From Tubiluchus corallicola (lineage: Eukaryota > Priapulida > Priapulimorpha > Priapulimorphida > Tubiluchidae): a stretch of DNA of 64,000 nt. The position numbers and the translations under genes are program-made. This document shows positions 4,176 through 35,934 of the stretch, one piece after another. The first letter of the stretch is position 1; each line of letters starts with the position of its first letter. Location of the stretch: the NCBI GenBank assembly GCA_030141605.1, contig JAQGDQ010000060.1, forward strand, positions 609,001-673,000, read 5' to 3'. A model generated the notes under the pieces. It was not told where the DNA came from. It did no database searches and worked only from the letters and a program-made list of their open reading frames with translations.

Positions 4176-4609
4176 AAACCCCACGCATCTTTTACACTTA
4201 CAGTCTGCAGTGACTGTAATTGCTTATAGCTGACACAAGATGATTAGGTGTACAAATTAAGGACATTTCTGATAAACTTTTAAAAGCCAACGTCCCAATT
4301 AATTCAGCATTTAATCTATTATTTAATTATCAGAAGTGGGTTTTGCAGTATTAATTATATTAAAATGTATATTTTTATTGTATTAGAAAATGGAAGAGTA
4401 TTTGATATGGAGAATCATCCTGTCTTGTTGTTGTCTTTAGTGTTGATATTTCACTAATTATAATGTTTTGTAAAACAACAATCTCTTCCGTTCTGAACTA
4501 GCATAATGTGGCTTTTTTCATATGTTTGCTAACTGGCTTAAGATTGAGAAAGACCACGAAAATGTATTAAGCTCGTTGGTAGGTATAAATAGCATCTGAC
4601 TAATTACCA

Positions 4610-5400
4610 TACTGTTCTGTGTAATAAAATGTTACTGAAGATGCTAAAGAAAATTATGGCTGGTACATCATCCTCTACATGAAGAATTTAAATTTCTCTC
4701 ACACGAAGCAAGATTAAATTTACCCTTTCAAGAATTTTCACTTTAAATTCTCAGTTGTGAAAAGCAGCCATTTCAATAAAAACATTCAATGGTAGCTAAA
4801 ACTCTAAACAATTTTTAATTTTTTAAGCTTTATTTAAATTGTACCATTTAGATTTATTTTATGTATTATTATATATATAGATTATTTGTTTGTAAAATTG
4901 AATTTATTTTACAGTTGAAAATCTATTGCTCTAATTGCTTTTCACTAATCTGAGCAAAGTTGAAACAACAAATTTCATATATCTCATGTGTACTATATAT
5001 CGCCAATAAAGATGTCCATGTATATATTTATGTTTGTAGATAATCTAGCATTATGTCATAACCTGCGCATGCGCAAGTACTCCGGTCACTGCATTTTTGA
5101 GAGTGAAAAAAGGTTGTTACAAAATTATAGCTAACTTACCGGCTAGCAGCCCATTCAGTAGTGATAAAACAACACAGCAAGATAAAACAACTTCTAAACA
5201 CCACATATCTACAGTAGTTTAGCTTTGATACATGTAAAGCTTTTATATGTGAAGTTGAAGACATTCCACGTGTCTGGAATACCGACCATAAACAGTGAAA
5301 ACTAATGTGGTTGCTGTTCAGGTTACATGCTGGCATTTTGTCATGTAAATCACATGGGGTAAACGAAGTTAGGTGCAATGACACATTTTGCCCAGGGCCT
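4610..5400. repeat. Dispersed repeat family B, copy 1
   Basis: This segment is nearly identical, in the same orientation, to 21337-22170. Landmarks are ATGCTAAAG.(A/G)AATTATGGCTGG, CCTGCGCATGCGCAAG and CTTACCGGCTAGCAGCCC. On the minus strand it keeps an open frame of about 82 codons that ends exactly at a GTAAGT splice-donor-like sequence in both copies. Its class is unknown and I saw no clear terminal repeats. Confidence 0.7.
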
Positions 5401-21041: not shown

Positions 21042-21336
21042 CTGAAATGCAGGTTAATTTATAATCTTTAACCAATTCCTTTATTATATTATTCTAAGTT
21101 TAAGTGAAGACTGTAAAATAAAGCCAAAACACTGAGTGACTTGTTTGCTTTAAAGCCTTATTATTATTATTATAACAAAAATAATAATTATTATTAATGT
21201 TGTTGTTGTTGTTAAAGCCCTCTTTTTATTGCAAAGTAATTTTATAATTCTTAAAGCTAAACAGGACCCAATCTTAAACTGCAGATCAAAACAATCTGGT
21301 TTTTACAATATTGAAAGAAAACAAAGTATTTACTAT

Positions 21337-22170
21337 ACTGTTCTGTGTAATAAAATGTTACTGAAGATGCTAAAGAGAATTATGGCTGGCACTTTCATCC
21401 TCTACATGAAGAATTTAAGTTTCTCTCACACGAAGTAAGATTAAATTTACCCTCTCAAGAATTTTCACTTTAAACTCTCAGTTGTGAAAGCAGCCATTTC
21501 AATCAAAACATTCAATGGTAGCTGAAACTCTAAACAATTTTTAATTTTTTTAAGCTTTTTTTAAATTGTGCCATTTAGATTTATTTTATGTATTATTATA
21601 TATATAGATTATTTGTATGTAAAGTTGAATTTATTTTATAGTTGAAAATTTGTTGATCTAATTGCTTTTCACTAATCTGAGCAAAGTTGAAACAACAAAT
21701 TTCATATCTCTCATGTACAAATTTCATATATCTCATGTACGAATTTGATATATCTCATGTGTACGTTATATCACCAATAAAAATGTCTATGTCTATATCT
21801 ATGTTTATGAATAATTTAGTATTATGTCATAACCTGCGCATGCGCAAGTACTCCGGTCACTGCATTTTTGAGAGTGAAAAAAGGTTGTTACAAAATTATA
21901 GCTAACTTACCGGCTAGCAGCCCATTCAGTAGTGATAAAACAACACAGCAAGATAAAACTTCTAAACACCACATATCTACAGTAGTTTAGCTTTGATACA
22001 TGTAAAGCTTTTATATGTGAAGTTGAAGACATTCCACGTGTCTGGAATACCGACCATAAACAGTGAAAACTAATGTGGTTGCTGTTCAGGTTACTTGCTT
22101 TCATTTTGTCACTTTTGTCACACGGGGTAAACGAACTCAGGTGGGATGACACATTTTGCCTGGCAACCTT
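21337..22170. repeat. Dispersed repeat family B, copy 2
   Basis: Nearly identical to 4610-5400 in the same orientation, with a few point changes and short indels (for example GATAAAACTTC against GATAAAACAACTTC). The two copies flank the recognised exons of the TTLL gene. The minus-strand open frame of about 81 codons ending in a GTAAGT donor-like site is kept. Confidence 0.7.
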
Positions 22171-22433
22171 TTAACCTGTTATGTCTTCTAAGTTGCTACT
22201 GATCTTGTTCACTGTTCCATTGTAAAGAGTGTAGGTAGACTGTATATGTAACTGTAATCACTAATCAATTAATTAACCATTACGTGATTTGTTGACTACA
22301 GAATTAACTACTATGTAAATTATGTATGAATTTCTGCATAATGGTATTGTACGTATAAAAAGGTGATAATGACAATAATAGTAGAAATAGTAATAGTATA
22401 GAAATAGTAATAGAAATAGTAAAAATAATAGTG

Positions 22434-23293
22434 TTATGGGCAAATTGCCCATACAATTTGTTTTTTCTTTTTCCCGCACGAGGGACCCAAAAACTGAAGC
22501 GGACGGGTGGGAATTGCTGGCAGAGTTATCTGGTTTTTTGTGGATAATGCAATGTGTTGTAATGTCGATAGTGCAATTTTGATGTAAGGAATTGGTTTTA
22601 TGCTTCAGCCATAAACGGTGTGCGCTCTTTGGCCGCACGAAGTGAGTGTTTTTTGTATATTTAATACATAGCAATTTTCTGTGTAATTTTTTTGTTCAAC
22701 TTCTGTGTTTTTTGTTCAAATTGCATTGCTGCAGATTTTATGTATTGTTTTGTTTTTCAAAGACTCCAGTGAACACATTAGGAAAGGAACTCTCGTGTTT
22801 GGCTGTATTAACATTTATTCTTTCGGCTGAAATGGACCGTGCATGCTGTTGGGTGTATGGAGCATAAACTGAAAGCGAGGAGCCATTTTTACTACCTTGA
22901 CACGGACGAACTAGTTTCATACATCACAGGAAGCCAGGCTGTACAAGCAATCAACTTACCTGTTTTACCCGTCTGAAGAACTTGGCTGCAGGGTGAATTA
23001 TGGAAAGTCAACCAGCTGTATGAAGTTACAGGTTTCTATCAACTAAATACACGTTTGAAGAAAACTTTTTGATGTAATCTGTATTGATACTTCATTGCAA
23101 TATTTCAATATTGAGAGAGAAAAATTGATCTAGCCTGTATACATGCTAAAAGACAGAGCTATGTTACAATTTGATGGTATAGTCTTTACAGTATTGGGTT
23201 TTTGGATATTATGCCAAGTTGCCATTACATTGTTGAATAGGTGTTGCATTGTTTAACATTGTTCTTGTTATAGTTTGTGCTAATGCTTTTATA
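22434..23293 (+). other. Leader region of the BEL/Pao element, possible 5' LTR
   Basis: TGTTATGGGCAAATTGCCCA at 22434 starts with TG and contains a short palindrome, as some BEL LTRs do. It precedes the gag start by 860 bases. With no 3' LTR in the window the LTR boundaries cannot be checked, so the call rests on position only. No separate gene is visible here. Confidence 0.25.
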
Positions 23294-24610
23294 ATGTCTG
23301 ATATAGAAAATTACACTGTTGAGCAGTTGAGAAAAAACTTGAAAGAGAGAGGGTTAAAGGTATCTGGGTCAAAAACCGAACTTATTGATAGATTAAAGGA
23401 GAGCATTACTAGGTTTTTACCTATTGAGCCCGGCCCTTCGGCCATCCATGAAGAAGATGCGCATAAGAGACAAACTTTAATGTCTAAATCTAATAAAGGA
23501 TCATCCAAAGCATCAGCTATTTCTTCTGTATTATCAAAAAGGGTAGCAGCAGAAGCTAGAAAAGCTGCTTTGCTGGTAGAAAGGAATGCCTTAGTGCAAA
23601 AGCAAGAGCTTGAACAAAAACAAAAAGAAATGGAACTGCAACAACAACGATTAAAGCAGCAACAAGAGCGCGTAGATCTGGAGACGAGACTCAAAGTAGC
23701 AAATGCCGAAGCTGCAGTGTACTCTAATTATGAAGCGAGTGAGCGCTCAATTTCCGAAGCAAGCTCTGAAAATAAAATAAGACGAGCCACTTCATGGGTA
23801 AAGGCACAGCAGACAAAGGATAAATTGGAAACCCCAAATGAAGCTCATGTAACCCTTGCAACTAATGACTTTTATGCTCAAAGCGCTATGGTCTTAGCTC
23901 ATTCTTTGCGAAAAACAAATACTAGGCATAGCATAGTTGTCATGGTAACAGCGCAGCTCTCGTCGAAGATTATGATACAAATGCAGACAATTTTTGATGA
24001 CGTTGAGCTTGTTGAAGAACAAATCTGCGACGGTTTAGAGGCGCTATATGCAGGACGTCCCGAGGTGAGAGCAACATACACCAAGCTTCATTGTTGGACT
24101 TTGACACGTTACTCTAAATGCATTTTCATGGATGCAGACACGATTGTCCTGCGAAATATTGATGACTTGTTTGAAAAAGAAGAACTTTCGGCGTCTCCTG
24201 ATATTGGTTGGCCTGACCATTTCAGCAGTGGTGTCATGGTCATCAGACCAAGTCTTGACACTTATAACAGTCTCTTAACCTTTGCCAGAACATTCCCAAG
24301 CTTTGATGGAGGAGATCAGGGCTTGTTGAACAGCTTTTTTAAAGACTGGAATCGTCTCCCCTTTAGGCCTTTACTTATAATGTTTCGGCATCTACGTGCT
24401 GCACATATCTACCTGCATTTGAAGCTTGTAGGGATGAAATAAAAGTTGTACATTTCCTTGGGAAAGAGAAGCCTTGGCAACACCATTAGAACAAGTTAAG
24501 AGATGTCATTACGCCACCATTTGGCGAGCCATTAAAGTATAATGCAGAGCATTTACGTTTATGGTGGAAATATTTCAATGAAATACAGACCACAAGCCAG
24601 CCTAATATTA
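23294..24610 (+). pseudogene. BEL gag N-terminus: SAP domain, coiled coil and fused glycogenin (GT8) domain
   Basis: From ATG 23294 a 382-codon frame runs to 24442. Residues 4-36 form a SAP domain (TVEQLRKNLKERGLKVSGSK). About 60-145 is a K/E/Q-rich coiled coil. From about 23840 the sequence is clearly glycogenin: TLATND, TKLHCW, the DxD metal site in FMDADT (24125-24142), NIDDLF, GWPD, FSSGV and SFDGGDQG. A frameshift near 24365 moves the rest into another frame, where TYLPAF (the region of the self-glucosylated tyrosine in glycogenin), VVHFLGKEKPW and, after a TAG at 24487, LRLWWKYF continue the glycogenin fold. That second frame then runs unbroken into the downstream gag, so the domain was once translated as part of gag. 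Glycogenin primes glycogen synthesis; its role in a retroelement is unknown. No introns, poly(A) tract or target duplications are seen at the joints. Confidence 0.9.
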
Positions 24611-25527
24611 ATGAAAGCGAAACACATTTCTTTCAGCAGCCACGTGTACAAGATCAGCATTTTGGCAACCAACCAATTCAGTGTCAGCAACCTTATAGGC
24701 AACCAGGTAACCAAGCAACCATCTATGCATCTAACCCATGCAATCAACCTTTACAGCTTGAATATACCCCTGCAATGAATACAGGTATGCCTACCTATGG
24801 CGCCTTTAGCGGTTTTCCATTGCCTAGCATCCAACTCGAAACATTTGACGGTTCAGAACTCCAGTATGCTAGATTCATTAGACGTTTTGAATCAACTGTA
24901 GAGAATAACACGACAGATAGTGTTGCGAGACCTTCCCTTCTCCTGCAATTTTGTAGCGAAAAAGTGCGAAAATATATCGACTGTTGCATGAATATGCGCC
25001 CAGATATTGGTTACATGCGTGCCAAACAAATGCTGAAGGAGAGGTATGGTGATGAATTTTCCATTACGCAGGCCTGGTTGAAAGAAATATCAAGCTTCAA
25101 ATATATAAAAGCGTCCGAACCAGAGCTGCTTCGTGATTACGCTGATACTTTAAGAAGTTGCTCAGAAGCTTTATCTGCAGTTGGACACATATCTGAGGTA
25201 AACACGCAAGGAAACCTATCCCAGATTGTTGACAAATTACCGCCTGGAATTCATGCGTCATGGAGAAAGGAAGTCTATAAAATACGAACTTCAGGCAGAG
25301 ATCCCAGGATTGAAGATGTTGTGAGTTTCATTGAACTTCAGGCAAAAATAGAGAACAACCCAACGTATCGCAAGAAGCCTGTAGATAGAAAAGAAAGCAA
25401 GGAAAGCACAAAGCCCAAGTTTGGGAATGCCAAGACCTTTGCTAACACAAACACACAACAACCGCAAGCTGCAGATGATCCTAAGAGCAATGACAAGAGC
25501 TTAAGGATCCTAAGAGGTTTCAAATTT
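24611..25527 (+). pseudogene. BEL gag, Q/N-rich linker and DUF1759-type region
   Basis: A frame continuous with the glycogenin tail. A linker rich in Q, N and P (about 24611-24775) leads to LPSIQLETFDGSELQYARF, the typical start of the BEL/Pao gag core. The region then runs through RYGDEFSITQAW and ends in a K/S/T-rich stretch. A single-base shift near 25500 separates it from the zinc-knuckle frame. Expected role: particle assembly. Confidence 0.85.
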
Positions 25528-26662
25528 TAAAATGCATTTCCTGCTCAGGAGAACATCTACTAATTAAATGTCCTGCTTTCAAGAAGTTATCTGTTCAAGA
25601 ACGTCGCGAGTTTGTTACTCAAAATAAGCTTTGCTTCAACTGCTTAAAGCGCAACCACATCAGCAGAGATTGCAGATCTGAGAAAAGATGTAAGGTTTGC
25701 CATAAAGGGCACTCCAATTTTTTGCACCTGAAGAGGGAAGATACAGCAAGCGCCATACCAAACAGAGATGTTACACAGATTAAAGAAGCATATGGAAAGC
25801 GTAACCAATCTCCCAGAGTTGAGAACAACGCAAAGAAAGATAGAGATGCATCACCAAAGCCAAACTCTCACAGTGCATATGTAAAGCAACAAAAGCCAAA
25901 TGCAAGAACAGCTTTGCCTATACTACCAGTTCAAGTAAAGGTACCAGGCGGTGTACCAACTATGACTCTAGCTTTACTGGCCAATGGTTCAATTAATACA
26001 TTTTGTTCAGAGCCATTGCGTCTAAGACTAGGTACTCGGGGAAGGAGGATGTTTTACGTCTAACAACTCTGGAAAGGAAGATGAGTGAAAATAAGACTAC
26101 TGTTGTCAAGCTCAAAGTCTCGCATATTGACAATCAAGATTTCATGGATCTGCTATTCGTCTTCACCAGACCTTCCTTGATGTTCGATATGGAGAATATG
26201 CCAACGCAAGACCATCTAAAAGAATGGCTGCACCTTCAAGGGCTTGATTTCCATTGCCTAGATGGCAATTGCAGCAACTTAGATGTAGGTCTTTTAATTG
26301 GTCAAGACATACCTGAAGCACTCATGTCACTGGAGATTAAGACAGGTCCAAAATATGCACCTTGGGCGACACGTGCTAAACTTGGATGGACTTTGAATGG
26401 TCCGCTATGTTCAGGAGAAACTAAGATTGCCTTAAGTCATTATGCTCATGTGGAAGGGCTGCAGGAAGTGATTCAAAAATTTTGGCAGTTGGAAGAATGT
26501 CAAAATGAAACTGTCGGCATGTCTGTAGAGGATGCGAAAGCTATTAAAATTTGGAAAACTTCAGCTGTTGTAACTCCAGATGGGCATTACCAGATAAGAA
26601 TACCATTCAGAGACAAAAATCCTCAACTAGGGATAGTAAAGTCGTTGCTCTGTCCCGATTAA
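25528..26662 (+). pseudogene. BEL zinc knuckles and Pao-type protease region
   Basis: CISCSGEHLLIKC and CFNCLKRNHISRDC are CCHC knuckles (C-x2-C-x3/4-H-x4-C). CKVCHKGHSNFLH is a third motif ending in H. The protease follows: VPTMTLALLANGSINTFC. In relatives the equivalent motif is ALLDSGS, so the catalytic aspartate appears lost. A frameshift near 26030 leads to the conserved Pao block with DVGLLIGQD and TKLGW-like ARAKLGWTLNGP. Decay is clear. Confidence 0.85.
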
Positions 26663-26679
26663 CTTAGCAAAAAGATTCA

Positions 26680-27697
26680 GGCAGGACAGCATTTTTTCAT
26701 AATAAATATGCAAATGAAATTGCAACGTTGCTACGAAACGGACATGCAGAACTCGTTCTTAAGGATCATGAGCCTGTGCCCGGTAAAGTGTGGTACCTCC
26801 CACATTTTGCTGTCAAAAGTGAAAGCAAACCAGATAAGACCAGAGTGGTGTTCGACTGTGCAGTTATTTTTCGTGGAACAACTCTCAATAAGAATGTTTT
26901 ACAAGGACCTGACCTAACTAACAACCTTGTTGAGGTGTTGGTCAGGTTTCGTGAAAAGCCTATTGCAATTGCAGCAGACATCGAGAAGATGTTCTACCAA
27001 GTTTAAGTGCATCCAGATGACAGAGACGTTTTACGATTTATTTGGTGGCCTGATGGACACGTGGATTTAGAACCACAAATCTACCGGATGACAGTGCACA
27101 TATTTGGAGGCATCTAGTGCCCTAACATTGCATCCTTTGCATTGCGGAAGAGCAGAAGACAACATAGGGGACATAGATGAGGACATAGTCATTCAGACAG
27201 TTTTAAGGAACTTTTATGTTGATGATCTTCTGGCAACCACACAAACTGTAGCAGATGCTACCTCTCTGATCAAGGACCTTTCTGAATTACTTCACCGTGG
27301 AGGCTTTCACTTGACAAAATGGTCCAACAACAATCGGGAAGTAATATCTTCTGTAGCACCCAAAGATCGCAGCAATTACGTCAAAGAAATCGATCTTGAC
27401 CTAGATGCTACAGCTACTCTTCCTGTGGACAGGGTCCTTGGTATAATGTGGGACCTGGAATCAGATACTTTTAATATTAAAGTCAAGAAGGGCAGACCTA
27501 TGACCCGACGTGGGCTTTTGAGTGTCACAGCTTCGACCTATGACCCATTGGGTATAACCAGCCCATGCATCTTGAATGCCAAGCTTCTGTTTCAAGAAGA
27601 AACACGTCTAAAGAAAGATTGGGATGATGATCTTTCTGACCACATTAAGGCTAAATGGCAGGCATGGCTATTATATATAGCAACGATATATACATAA
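26680..27697 (+). pseudogene. BEL reverse transcriptase, frameshifted and truncated
   Basis: Three frames together give the Pao RT: GKVWYLPHFAV, TRVVFDCA, IAADIEKMFYQV (first catalytic aspartate), FIWWPDG, then NFYVDDLL with the YVDD active site, HLTKWSNN, LGIMWD, and STYDPLG.TSP. The sequence is broken at about 27003 (stop) and 27095. The RNase H and integrase are missing after about 27660. Confidence 0.9.
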
Positions 27698-31740: not shown

Positions 31741-32465
31741 TAATATATTTCAGAGCAGATCTACGTGTACTTAAAAACAGAAGTTTTTTTGTATTTTCTC
31801 TCATTATAATAAAAATTATGTTTAATAAACAGTTAACAGGTTAACTGTATTGTTTACAGTTTTTTTTGTTTGATTTTTGTATGTATAGTAGATGAAACGC
31901 TTTTAATTGTTTGGAATATTGATGCAGAAAATCGACTTTAAATGAAATTTGTCTTGTCTAAATTTATTTTATCTCCTCTCCTCTCTCTTCTCCTCTCCTT
32001 TCCTCTCCCCATTCTCTTTATTATTGTAACAAATTATTATTATTGTAATTTTTGTATTTGTGTAAGTTTGTGTGATTTGTTTGTATGTTGTAAATACGTC
32101 AATTATAATATGAGCTTCAGTTTGAAATAAAGGATTAATTAAATCAAATCAAATCAGATCAGATCAAATCCTTTTCGCTCCTCTCTCGTTTCGCCTCTTT
32201 CGTCTAGCACATCTAGTCCTACGTTAATTTTAATGCTAATGAACATGGAAAACTTCATTAAATTTCCGTACAAGGCAGTGGTGGATAAGGCACGGCTTTA
32301 TTAGTTGCGCCCAGGGGCCTCCACCAGCTGAGGAGCCTCCAGAGATTACGTAAAGACAAATGACCTTGAAATTACTACAGAATGAGAGCAGAATTATGCT
32401 GAATTTTTCCTTTGAAAAGGGCTCAATTAATTAATATGCCGTAGAATAATACATTATTATCGACA

Positions 32466-32597
<132 letters not shown>

Positions 32598-32605
32598 TCT
32601 TGATG

Positions 32606-32843
32606 AGTGCAATGCAATGCAATACAAAGCAATACACTACAATACAAGATGATGCAATGCAATGCAATGCAATGCAATGCAATGCAATGCAAAGCAAAGC
32701 AATACAATACAATACAATACAATACAATACAATACAATACAATACAATACAATACAATACAATACAATACAATACAATACAATACAATACAATACAATAC
32801 AATACAATACAATACAATACAATACAATACAATACAATACAAT
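32606..32843. repeat. AATAC/AATGC pentanucleotide array 1
   Basis: The left part (to about 32700) mixes AATGC, AAAGC and AATAC units. The right part is about 28 pure AATAC units. The 15-base super-period has no stop in any of six frames, which creates long spurious open frames on both strands. Confidence 0.97.
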
Positions 32844-32849
32844 TGTAAG

Positions 32850-34020
32850 GTTCTTACACATAGCTAAACTAGATATTGCTGTAGTATAGTCTGTGGGAAG
32901 GGTTTCCTACCTATCACCCCTCCTTTCGTAATATACTATAACCTATCCATGCATAACATGATCTTGGAAAGTGCATGACACAGATATCCAGGGGAGTACA
33001 GTGTAACTGCTGAATCTGAAAGCAGCCAAAAATGCTTTAACTCTTAACTTTAACTTTACTTTACGAAAATGGTTAAAATCCTAAACTTGATTATAAGAGT
33101 CTTTGAAGCACTAAACTTGTGCACATCTACTATTTGACTGATCTAACATAAAGAGACTATCAGTGGTGATACCAAACTACTTCAGTTTTGATGTTGTGGA
33201 TGGAGCTTCATTCACACTGATGAGATGTTGGAACTCTCTACGATGTGTCTTATTCTAAACTACATGAAAATGCGTGACTAGCCACCAGTGTCCAGACGTT
33301 GTGGATTGTGGACGTATCCTGAGTCAACCACAGAGACTTGTGAGCCATTCCTTAGTTCATGTTTGATTGGTGCTGCAGCCGGCGTCATCACCGTTGATTG
33401 TTATGGCCATAGACTTGAAGTCGTTGATGTGTTGCTGTGACTGACTGGAGTGAGCTACGTCCGCGGACTCCTTTCCTATGTCCTTGTCCTCTCAGGGGAA
33501 GGGTTAACTGATAAGTAGACGTTTTGTTTTCTTTTCACTTTGTCATTTTTGTTATTATGCTTTTATGCGAAACTGTTATTGATAATTTAACCTGTTCTAA
33601 TTTATCTAAACAGAGTAAAAAGTGAATAAAAATAGTAAACATAATCATAATCTTTTCCTCCATTTCATATAAGATTTTGTTGTTGGTATGTTTGGAATCT
33701 ATGTATGTCATGGTCAACATGGAAAACCATAACGCCTAAGTAGACCCCCGTAAAACGTAACATCAAGCCTTAGACCCGCTGGTTTTTCAAGTGAGCCCTT
33801 CGACATTGCAACCTCACTAAAGATATATTAATTATACCTGTGTCGTTGAATTTTGGTTCATATGCCTTGTTGCCCTCTGGAAAATTGTAGGACAACAACC
33901 GCCCACGTATGTTGCACAACCCTTTTATTGTGAATAAAAGATGACGCGACAGGGTAGTCAGATTTGTGGATGAGTTGGGAGGTAAAGAGTTGCACCCCCA
34001 CCATAAAAATCTACTAGCTC
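32850..34020. other. Stretch between the two pentanucleotide arrays, no gene seen
   Basis: AT-rich unique-looking sequence of about 1.2 kb. No conserved coding motif, splice-bounded exon or RNA gene was recognised. Confidence 0.45.
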
Positions 34021-34024
34021 CCAA

Positions 34025-34655
34025 CAACAATACAATACAATACAATACAATACAATACAATACAATACAATACAATACAATACAATACAATACAATACAA
34101 TACAATACAATACAATACAATACAATACAATACAATACAATACAATACAATACAATACAATACAATACAATACAATTCAATACAATACAATACAATACAA
34201 TACAATACAATACAATACAATACAATACAATACAATACAATACAATACAATACAATACAATACAATACAATACAATACAATACAATACAATACAATACAA
34301 TACAATACAATACAATACAATACAATACAATACAATACAATACAATACAATACAATACAATACAATGCAATGCAATGCAATGCAATACAATACAATACAA
34401 TACAATACAATACAATACAATACAATACAATACAATACAATACAATACAATACAATACAATACAATACAATACAATACAATACAATACAATACAATACAA
34501 TACAATACAATACAATACAATACAATACAATAAAAATCAATACAGTATAATATAATATAATACAACACAACACAATGCAATGCAATGCAATGCAATACAA
34601 TACAATACAATACAATGCAATCAAATACAATACAATACAATACAATACAATACAG
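34025..34655. repeat. AATAC pentanucleotide array 2, about 630 bp
   Basis: More than 120 AATAC units, interrupted by a block of four AATGC units at about 34364-34384, and by mixed AATGC, AAAAT and ACAAC units near the right end (34530-34625). Open frames of up to 291 codons across it on either strand are by-products of the stop-free repeat. Confidence 0.97.
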
Positions 34656-35934
34656 TAAACCTAAACACTTGGTTTAGCATCAGTGAAATAAATAAAGTTC
34701 CGAATAAAGTAATAATCATCTTACCTGTTGCTAGTAAACGTTGTTGTTGTTATGTCCAGTGATATTCTCATTTCAGAAGCATGTTTCTTGAAGGGTACAG
34801 GAAACGTTGTTAGCTGAACAGTATCTTCATATAGAAGCCATACAAGCTATAACAGCAACAGCTAAATGAAGTTTCATATTAATGCTTCGGAAGTTGTAAA
34901 GTTGTAATCATAAAATGGAATTATTATCATTTTTGTGACGACGAAGATTGCAGCTAATTAGCTATTGTTATCAAGTCGGTTAAATGATTATGCTGCATAG
35001 GCGACCAGTGTGTTGAAAGCTCATGGGAGTACAATTGCAATTTCAAATCATGTTGAACATTCACCATAGAAACACACAAAACACACTTTTGTAACGCCCT
35101 TGAGCATTACGTCAACGCATAAGATGCACAATGCTCAACCATGTATTAATTTCAACGTTTTCTTTGCATAGCGAAGTTTACTTTGTTCAAAGGACAAAAA
35201 TACTGAATGTATAGAGAACCAACAAAGAGAACCTCTGAAGGGAAAGTTGCACACGTGATGTTACGTCAAACGAAGCCATTTCTGAATCATTGCCAGGTAA
35301 CAAAGCTTGCTCTTTGACTATGAAAAACTGCTTAAATATGTTCATTGTTAAAACTAATGTACTAATAATTGTAGTTTAAAGTATCCACACTATGAAATTT
35401 CTCTATACCAATACAGATAGATAAAAACTCATAAAGATAAAGTAGAAAACTACATTATCTACTTTTAGCATAAATATATAGTATGCATACTTTGAACTAT
35501 AATTATTAGTTTTTCTCTGTACTAGAGATTTTGTATTTTAGCAATTTTACTAATTTTAATAATTTTGCTATTTCAATTCAAGTGCAAATTCATTAAGTTT
35601 TATATCGGAATCGCTTTCTTAGATTAATTTATACTAAAAGTACATGTCATATTTGTCTCTGTGCTAGATTGTAAGATATCTTTTTGTATTTGTATTTATC
35701 GATTGATTTTATAATAATTTTTAAGGCGCTTTTTCTAAATCCTTCATTGGGTACCCCTTTCTTGTTTTTAAAGTTTAACAAGTGAATAAGTTTACATTTA
35801 TATACGAAGTTAAAATTTTTGCTATAGCATAAATCAAACTCGTTATAGTCTAAGGCTTTATATAAAACACAGAAATAGTTTTCTGTCTGATAATAAGGCT
35901 GTTTAAAGGAAAAGTCAAGCTTTTTAAGCGGTTA

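Follow-up and report, generated by a model that had tools for sequence, protein, structure and literature searches.

Retrotransposons with long terminal repeats (LTRs) that have gained enzyme genes are described from plants and animals. Orchid Ty3/Gypsy elements carry an AlkB-type N6-methyladenosine (m6A) RNA demethylase, in Phalaenopsis only according to the accessible sections of the report (PMC9289625), and LTR elements of bdelloid rotifers carry an esterase or exonuclease as a third open reading frame (ORF3), or a dUTPase (accessible part of PMC5408684). Here we describe an enzyme domain that sits within Gag itself. The locus lies in a stretch of 64,000 nucleotides from the priapulid Tubiluchus corallicola (contig JAQGDQ010000060.1, positions 609,001 to 673,000, forward strand), called the window in the following. 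It is a BEL/Pao element in which a SAP domain, a coiled coil and an intronless, glycogenin-type glycosyltransferase family 8 (GT8) domain, together at 23294-24588, lead into the BEL/Pao gag. The window copy has decayed; its family is one of several in a large GT8-carrying BEL/Pao clade. The best explanation we can offer, to which as a whole we assign a probability of roughly 0.7, is that the GT8 domain entered the Gag linker between coiled coil and DUF1759 in the ancestor of the clade, by capture from a spliced glycogenin mRNA of the host, that this happened once and was followed by one later loss, and that the domain has been kept as a Gag-glucosylating enzyme.

Comparison with described systems

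The general features of the elements are those of BEL/Pao retrotransposons (Belpaoviridae, genus Semotivirus; PMC8742986), i.e. LTRs, a gag with DUF1759, a CCHC zinc knuckle, an A17 peptidase, an integrase, and one long gag-pol frame in an element of about 7.7 kb. They depart from the BEL/Pao elements of that profile, issued by the International Committee on Taxonomy of Viruses, in that they add SAP and a glycogenin GT8 domain in Gag, neither of which is mentioned there (PMC8742986). A term search of the accessible text of de la Chaux and Wagner 2011 (PMC3118150) found neither 'SAP' nor 'glyco'. The initial annotation of the window, made from the letters alone, knew of no BEL element with a glycosyltransferase in gag, and we likewise found no report of a glycosyltransferase or SAP in a BEL gag in the accessible open-access literature or by term search of two BEL/Pao papers, a scope that leaves out subscription papers, preprints and Repbase notes.

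The orchid and rotifer elements are similar in other respects. Firstly, the orchid case is also one of a host enzyme captured and kept by a lineage of LTR retrotransposons, but AlkB is an additional ORF in plant Gypsy elements, whereas here a different enzyme has been built into Gag in frame, and this in several BEL families of animal type (PMC9289625, accessible sections). Secondly, the rotifer elements are animal LTR elements that gained enzyme genes, but their esterase or exonuclease is an ORF3 beside gag and pol, not in Gag, and the accessible part of that source names no glycosyltransferase (PMC5408684). The captured host enzymes that we found described thus sit in extra ORFs, while in the present elements a structural protein has durably incorporated a metabolic enzyme, in eight families.

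The captured domain itself is close to glycogenin (GYG1/GYG2; GT8). For the family D domain the alignment to glycogenin-1 (1zct) covers 221 residues (E-value 3e-87), and the DxD motif, Tyr195, His212 and Lys218 are mostly kept in the elements. Unlike glycogenin, the element version lies inside Gag, is intronless, and shows no recognisable glycogen-synthase-binding motif.

Copies and families across the genome

Copies were found by similarity in the 343.5 Mb genome, and the counts given below are lower bounds; they take in likely haplotype or assembly duplicates (contigs C485 and C461, for instance, share flanks) and are not insertion counts, which has to be held against the reading proposed here. 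With the DNA of positions 23,294 to 24,610 as query, the same junction was found in two further copies, on C1143 (94% identical) and C331 (78%). The C1143 copy begins its LTR at the identical base and has different flanking DNA. Since it has two LTRs and its matching gag follows only 13.7 kb farther on, it has probably received a later insertion. With this query there were also GT8-only matches at 66-68%; those fetched belong to further BEL families in which the parts are arranged alike, and several have long ORFs.

A GT8 query from one open copy gave at least 90 matches in at least 68 clusters genome-wide, and in 49 of the 68 a BEL gag follows on the same strand, less than 2.5 kb downstream. 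Among the other 19 are the host glycogenin (2), a host-like gene on C2318 (2), the end of contig C1210, the C1143 copy with its split, and decayed pieces that in part retain weak traces of gag. The DUF1759 of the window, used in the same way, gave at least 132 matches in at least 124 clusters (150 of 194 candidates scored), and 75 of the 124 have no GT8. Among the 30 best-scoring loci the order SAP-GT8-DUF1759 was found in 27, and a single open frame in 16; the remaining three comprise one that runs off its contig, one without a SAP match and one without a DUF1759 match. The GT8 domain is free of stops in 22 of the 26 matches that span query residues 8-226, and ORFs of GT8-bearing elements reach 2217 amino acids. 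In all, eight diverged families carry GT8 in gag, and five families other than that of the window (B, C, D, the L053 type and the L044 type) have SAP, a complete GT8 and DUF1759 in one open frame. Several copies thus share the SAP-GT8-gag order and many have open frames, the pattern by which the initial annotation would recognise a replicating chimera, but there are eight diverged families instead of one element; the capture dates further back, and has been more successful, than was supposed.

The best preserved structure is found on C1810 (379959-387678). The two 407-bp LTRs of this copy, which is about 7.7 kb long, do not differ from each other; it also has a 5-bp target duplication (ATATT at both sides) and a purine run ahead of the 3' LTR (polypurine tract), both found for this copy only. 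Its ORF of 2217 amino acids contains SAP (under the Pfam cut-off), GT8, DUF1759, a weak aspartic protease, the A17 peptidase and an integrase; in pol, PF05380 (3.9e-44) and PF17921 (1.2e-10) are clear, and the rve (6e-05) and aspartic protease (0.0076) matches are under their cut-offs, so that the BEL/Pao set of A17 peptidase, aspartic protease and integrase is complete partly by sub-cut-off matches. The LTRs of this copy, the LTR pair of the C1143 copy and the single 5' LTR of the window (382 bp) fall within the 0.2-1.2 kb of BEL/Pao elements. The expected Gag parts are there as well, the capsid-like one as DUF1759 and the CCHC knuckle in the window, just under its cut-off. To judge from the sequence, at least one GT8 family is one with a recent insertion.

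Five near-identical GT8-gag remnants (C1796, C2016, C2136, C2140, C2209) each have one more piece of gag some 4-5 kb upstream, always at equal spacing; they may be part of a larger repeat or assembly duplicates. Outside this genome, protein searches with the SAP-coiled-coil part (821 candidates) and with gag (653 candidates) gave no relative at E<=0.001, within a length window of 0.55-1.75x that omits full gag-pol proteins, and the viral contigs scanned gave no match. A Pangasianodon protein (P0001, 296 bits), the top of the best 120 of 2161 protein matches, was considered as a second chimera and rejected; it is a glycogenin with a duplicated stretch and has no SAP or gag.

Conservation of the active site and a possible function

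Eleven active-site positions were picked by reference to glycogenin structures and numbered via Suncus GYG1. Ten of them are invariant across seven families that are 52-65% identical, as against 71 of 211 columns overall (hypergeometric p = 9e-5), and the invariant ones include Tyr195, His212 and Lys218. Tyr195 is the self-glucosylated residue of glycogenin, and the Y195F mutant is not glucosylated (PMC9188544, accessible part). Its equivalent is Tyr in all 11 element rows that reach the site (15 rows aligned); the window copy has Cys, and its sister copy on C1143 has Tyr. The DxD motif is found in the elements except for ExD in L013 and L014 and NxD in L049.

Between families the synonymous sites of GT8 are saturated (proportion of synonymous differences, pS, 0.72-0.94), with a nonsynonymous divergence (dN) of 0.27-0.43. 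Within families we pooled one chosen pair from each of six families and compared them with equal rates by a binomial test that has no correction for transition bias: there were 66.5 nonsynonymous differences at 2844 sites and 50.5 synonymous ones at 780 sites, i.e. a ratio (pN/pS) of 0.36 (p = 8e-8). Long-term purifying selection thus seems to have kept GT8 in the elements, a question that the initial annotation had raised.

Glycogenin binds glycogen synthase by its C-terminal region (PMC9188544, accessible part). The corresponding motif was found in none of 63 loci, as opposed to 92 of 120 glycogenins, when GT8- or DUF1759-bearing frames were scanned with a pattern that we took as its mark; the 63 include duplicates, GT8-less loci and host-gene loci. 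For this reason we class the domain as a captured glycogenin catalytic domain and not as a glycogenin. With the usual glycogenin tail apparently absent, recruitment of glycogen synthase by that route is unlikely, and full glycogen granules are, given the 0 of 63, less likely than short glucose chains.

The position of the Gag-fused GT8 corresponds roughly to that of the matrix in retroviruses. Gag is present in many copies per particle, and each copy would bear a glycogenin GT8 domain. Because DxD, His212, Lys218 and Tyr195 are kept, the domain is predicted to be able to glucosylate itself or a neighbouring Gag; it would use UDP-glucose and Mn2+ and modify the Tyr195 equivalent. Assembling particles would then bear short glucose chains that may aid assembly, shield the particle or direct it to a location in the cell. 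The elements can do without the domain, as the closely related GT8-less group shows. The initial annotation had offered sugar-modified gag particles as speculation, and the kept catalytic residues now back this idea; we infer that a self-glucosylating Gag would be the best mechanism. We see even chances that this clade of animal retrotransposons encodes such a Gag and, with it, a glucose-coated virus-like particle that acts as an intracellular glycan shield or address label. No precedent for such a particle was found in the accessible open-access literature. The system makes testable whether a retroelement modifies its capsid with sugar, what benefit glucose chains would bring, and whether there is an interplay of glycogen metabolism and transposition.

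There are a few points that weigh against a kept enzyme. In seven between-family pairs dN was 0.27-0.36 for GT8 and 0.23-0.36 for DUF1759, with GT8 the higher in six of them. Of 20 within-family pairs, 16 show weaker constraint on GT8 than on DUF1759 (with one tie); in family D the within-family ratio of nonsynonymous to synonymous divergence is 0.55-0.99. Asp102 is the exception among the eleven positions, being Glu in family B (D102E in L013 and L014, on contigs with shared flanks), and single copies show the active-site changes D160N (L050), D102N (L049) and Q164R (L047). The window copy has N133S together with its Cys at the acceptor site.

The strongest alternative is that GT8 is a structural module only: glycogenin dimerises, and the domain could aid the oligomerisation of Gag with no need for catalysis. 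A dimeriser would be well placed between the coiled coil and the capsid, and family B keeps an ORF of 1248 amino acids despite D102E. The lower constraint of GT8 relative to DUF1759 in most within-family pairs raises this alternative slightly and lowers the enzymatic reading slightly. We nevertheless think it unlikely, as ten active-site columns are invariant in families so far diverged, and a mere scaffold need not keep an acceptor tyrosine that lies in a variable loop.

Origin of the captured domain

The host has a glycogenin gene on C2137 whose GT8 is split at three places with GT-AG ends, i.e. by three introns, and the GT8 of the elements runs unbroken through all three sites. This is what capture of a spliced mRNA predicts, and it agrees with the origin proposed in the initial annotation; we suggest that the capture would have taken place once, by template switching on spliced glycogenin mRNA. 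In the families looked at, the captured stretch starts at the glycogenin start and ends after a W..I..V.P stretch. Among the rows compared, none exceeds 70% identity to the host glycogenin. BEL relatives without GT8 show the unoccupied order, i.e. coiled coil, a short Trp motif (WV there), linker and DUF1759, and in the carriers GT8 begins some 15-30 residues past a like motif (WV, WL, WI or WF; by eye). Another host gene resembling glycogenin (L055, C2318:1-5000) seems to have two exons, whose ends are similar to those in the C2137 gene and which lie on opposite strands, possibly by misassembly.

A tree of DUF1759 was built from 34 rows, leaving out 18 loci that duplicate others and those in which no stretch reaches 121 residues. 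SAP-bearing elements form a clade in it (support 95/90), which splits into families A and B with the GT8-less, SAP-bearing loci L059-L061 on one side and all other GT8 families on the other. The GT8 tree has 15 element rows, the host gene and 24 glycogenins. The main splits agree between the two trees: A and B stand apart, and family D branches first among the rest (94/96 in gag, 96/92 in GT8). The three GT8-less loci (C1776:50300-52600, C2080:15400-17560 and C2123:125230-127500), a nested group that the initial annotation had not foreseen, are 64-66% identical in gag to the window family, and C2080 carries two opposed GT8-less copies about 10 kb apart. Another BEL group (L062-L064, on C1254, C2289 and C548) has no SAP or GT8 matches and a different Gag N-terminus.

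The alternative next in weight is that glycogenin was captured twice at one and the same site in gag, once in the line of A and B and once in that of the remaining families. The gag tree speaks for it and against a single capture: a single clade of GT8 carriers is rejected by the approximately unbiased (AU) test (p-AU 0.001), and with L059-L061 nested beside A and B the domain has to change twice. Both free GT8 trees also set A and B apart from the other element rows. However, a single element clade is not rejected by the GT8 data. With the elements held together the fit is slightly better than that of the free tree obtained (p-AU 0.534), and in a smaller tree with six element rows p-AU is 0.275; a tree with the window copy as sole element row gave no resolved placement. 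Furthermore, the domain was inserted in the same region after the Trp motif with like boundaries, and two gains cost the same number of changes as one gain and one loss. Two captures appear less probable to us, and we favour one old gain with one later loss, which in our judgement fits best.

A nested processed pseudogene, i.e. a glycogenin retrocopy made by a long interspersed nuclear element (LINE) and dropped into an old BEL element, would suit the broken window copy, but this reading, the alternative named in the initial annotation, is refuted by the junction shared with the C1143 and C331 copies, the former with different flanks, and by the single SAP-GT8-DUF1759 open frames of five other families. 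Equally negligible is an assembly artefact that joined glycogenin and BEL in chimeric contigs: some contigs share flanks or look duplicated (C485 and C461, and the five remnant loci), but it is rejected by dozens of loci in eight diverged families, by LTRs with a target duplication at one copy, and by open copies that lack introns.

The copy in the window

All features of this copy are on the + strand. The element extends from the 5' LTR start at 22432 to about 27690, where it is cut off. The 5' LTR (TGTTATGG...ACA, 382 bp) occupies 22432-22813; its start is the position where homology to the C1143 copy begins, the flanks being unrelated, and its end is where 24 of 45 matches to 22432-22850 stop exactly (query position 382). 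A second LTR was seen neither in the window nor in the listed matches on its contig, where 40 of 91 candidates had been scored.

The ORF at 23294-24439, with its ATG at 23294, fuses the N-terminal part of Gag in frame to GT8. It starts with the SAP domain (23300-23407; PF02037, residues 3-38, E 7.1e-11), and a coiled-coil-like stretch follows (23540-23830, by eye from translations) that closes with the Trp motif, here TSWV, about 15 residues ahead of GT8. The first part of GT8 (23840-24367) is glycogenin-like by structure and profile matches, with DxD in FMDADT, GWPD and FDGGDQG; the ORF has a Glyco_transf_8 Pfam match (E 3e-11), and its residues 182-376 resemble glycogenin-1 structures (E 2e-59). 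The frame is broken near 24.36 kb, and the second part (24367-24477; translation, alignment and profile match) with the Cys at the Tyr195 position is read in the shifted frame. An in-frame TAG at 24487-24489, a sign of decay, precedes the C-terminal tail (24490-24588; KVVHFLGKEKPW, LRLWWKYF), which has a boundary like that of other families and is read in the frame of the gag ORF 24490-25530. DUF1759 (24820-25368; PF03564, E 9.3e-07, and profile match) and the CCHC zinc knuckle of the nucleocapsid (25629-25676; PF00098, E 4.9e-04, slightly under the curated cut-off) come next, and then a decayed pol in several frames (25997-27697) that closes with the Pao A17 peptidase (PF05380, E 2.7e-13).

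Most of what the initial annotation had said of this copy is borne out by these matches, namely an intronless glycogenin GT8 between coiled coil and gag core that is in frame with the SAP part upstream and by its tail with gag downstream. An absence of poly(A) at the joints had also been noted, and by eye we saw no A-run at either GT8 joint. It had counted one frameshift and one stop as the only breaks; both are there in GT8, but pol is broken as well and the 3' end is missing. The glycogenin features it listed as kept were found for DxD, GWPD and DGGDQG but not for the acceptor tyrosine.

Upstream of the LTR there is a dispersed repeat (21327-22160) with a second occurrence at 4601-5392, 93-94% identical. 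Farther downstream, 32423-32863 and 33770-34673 are long tandem arrays of short units with multiple open frames on either strand.
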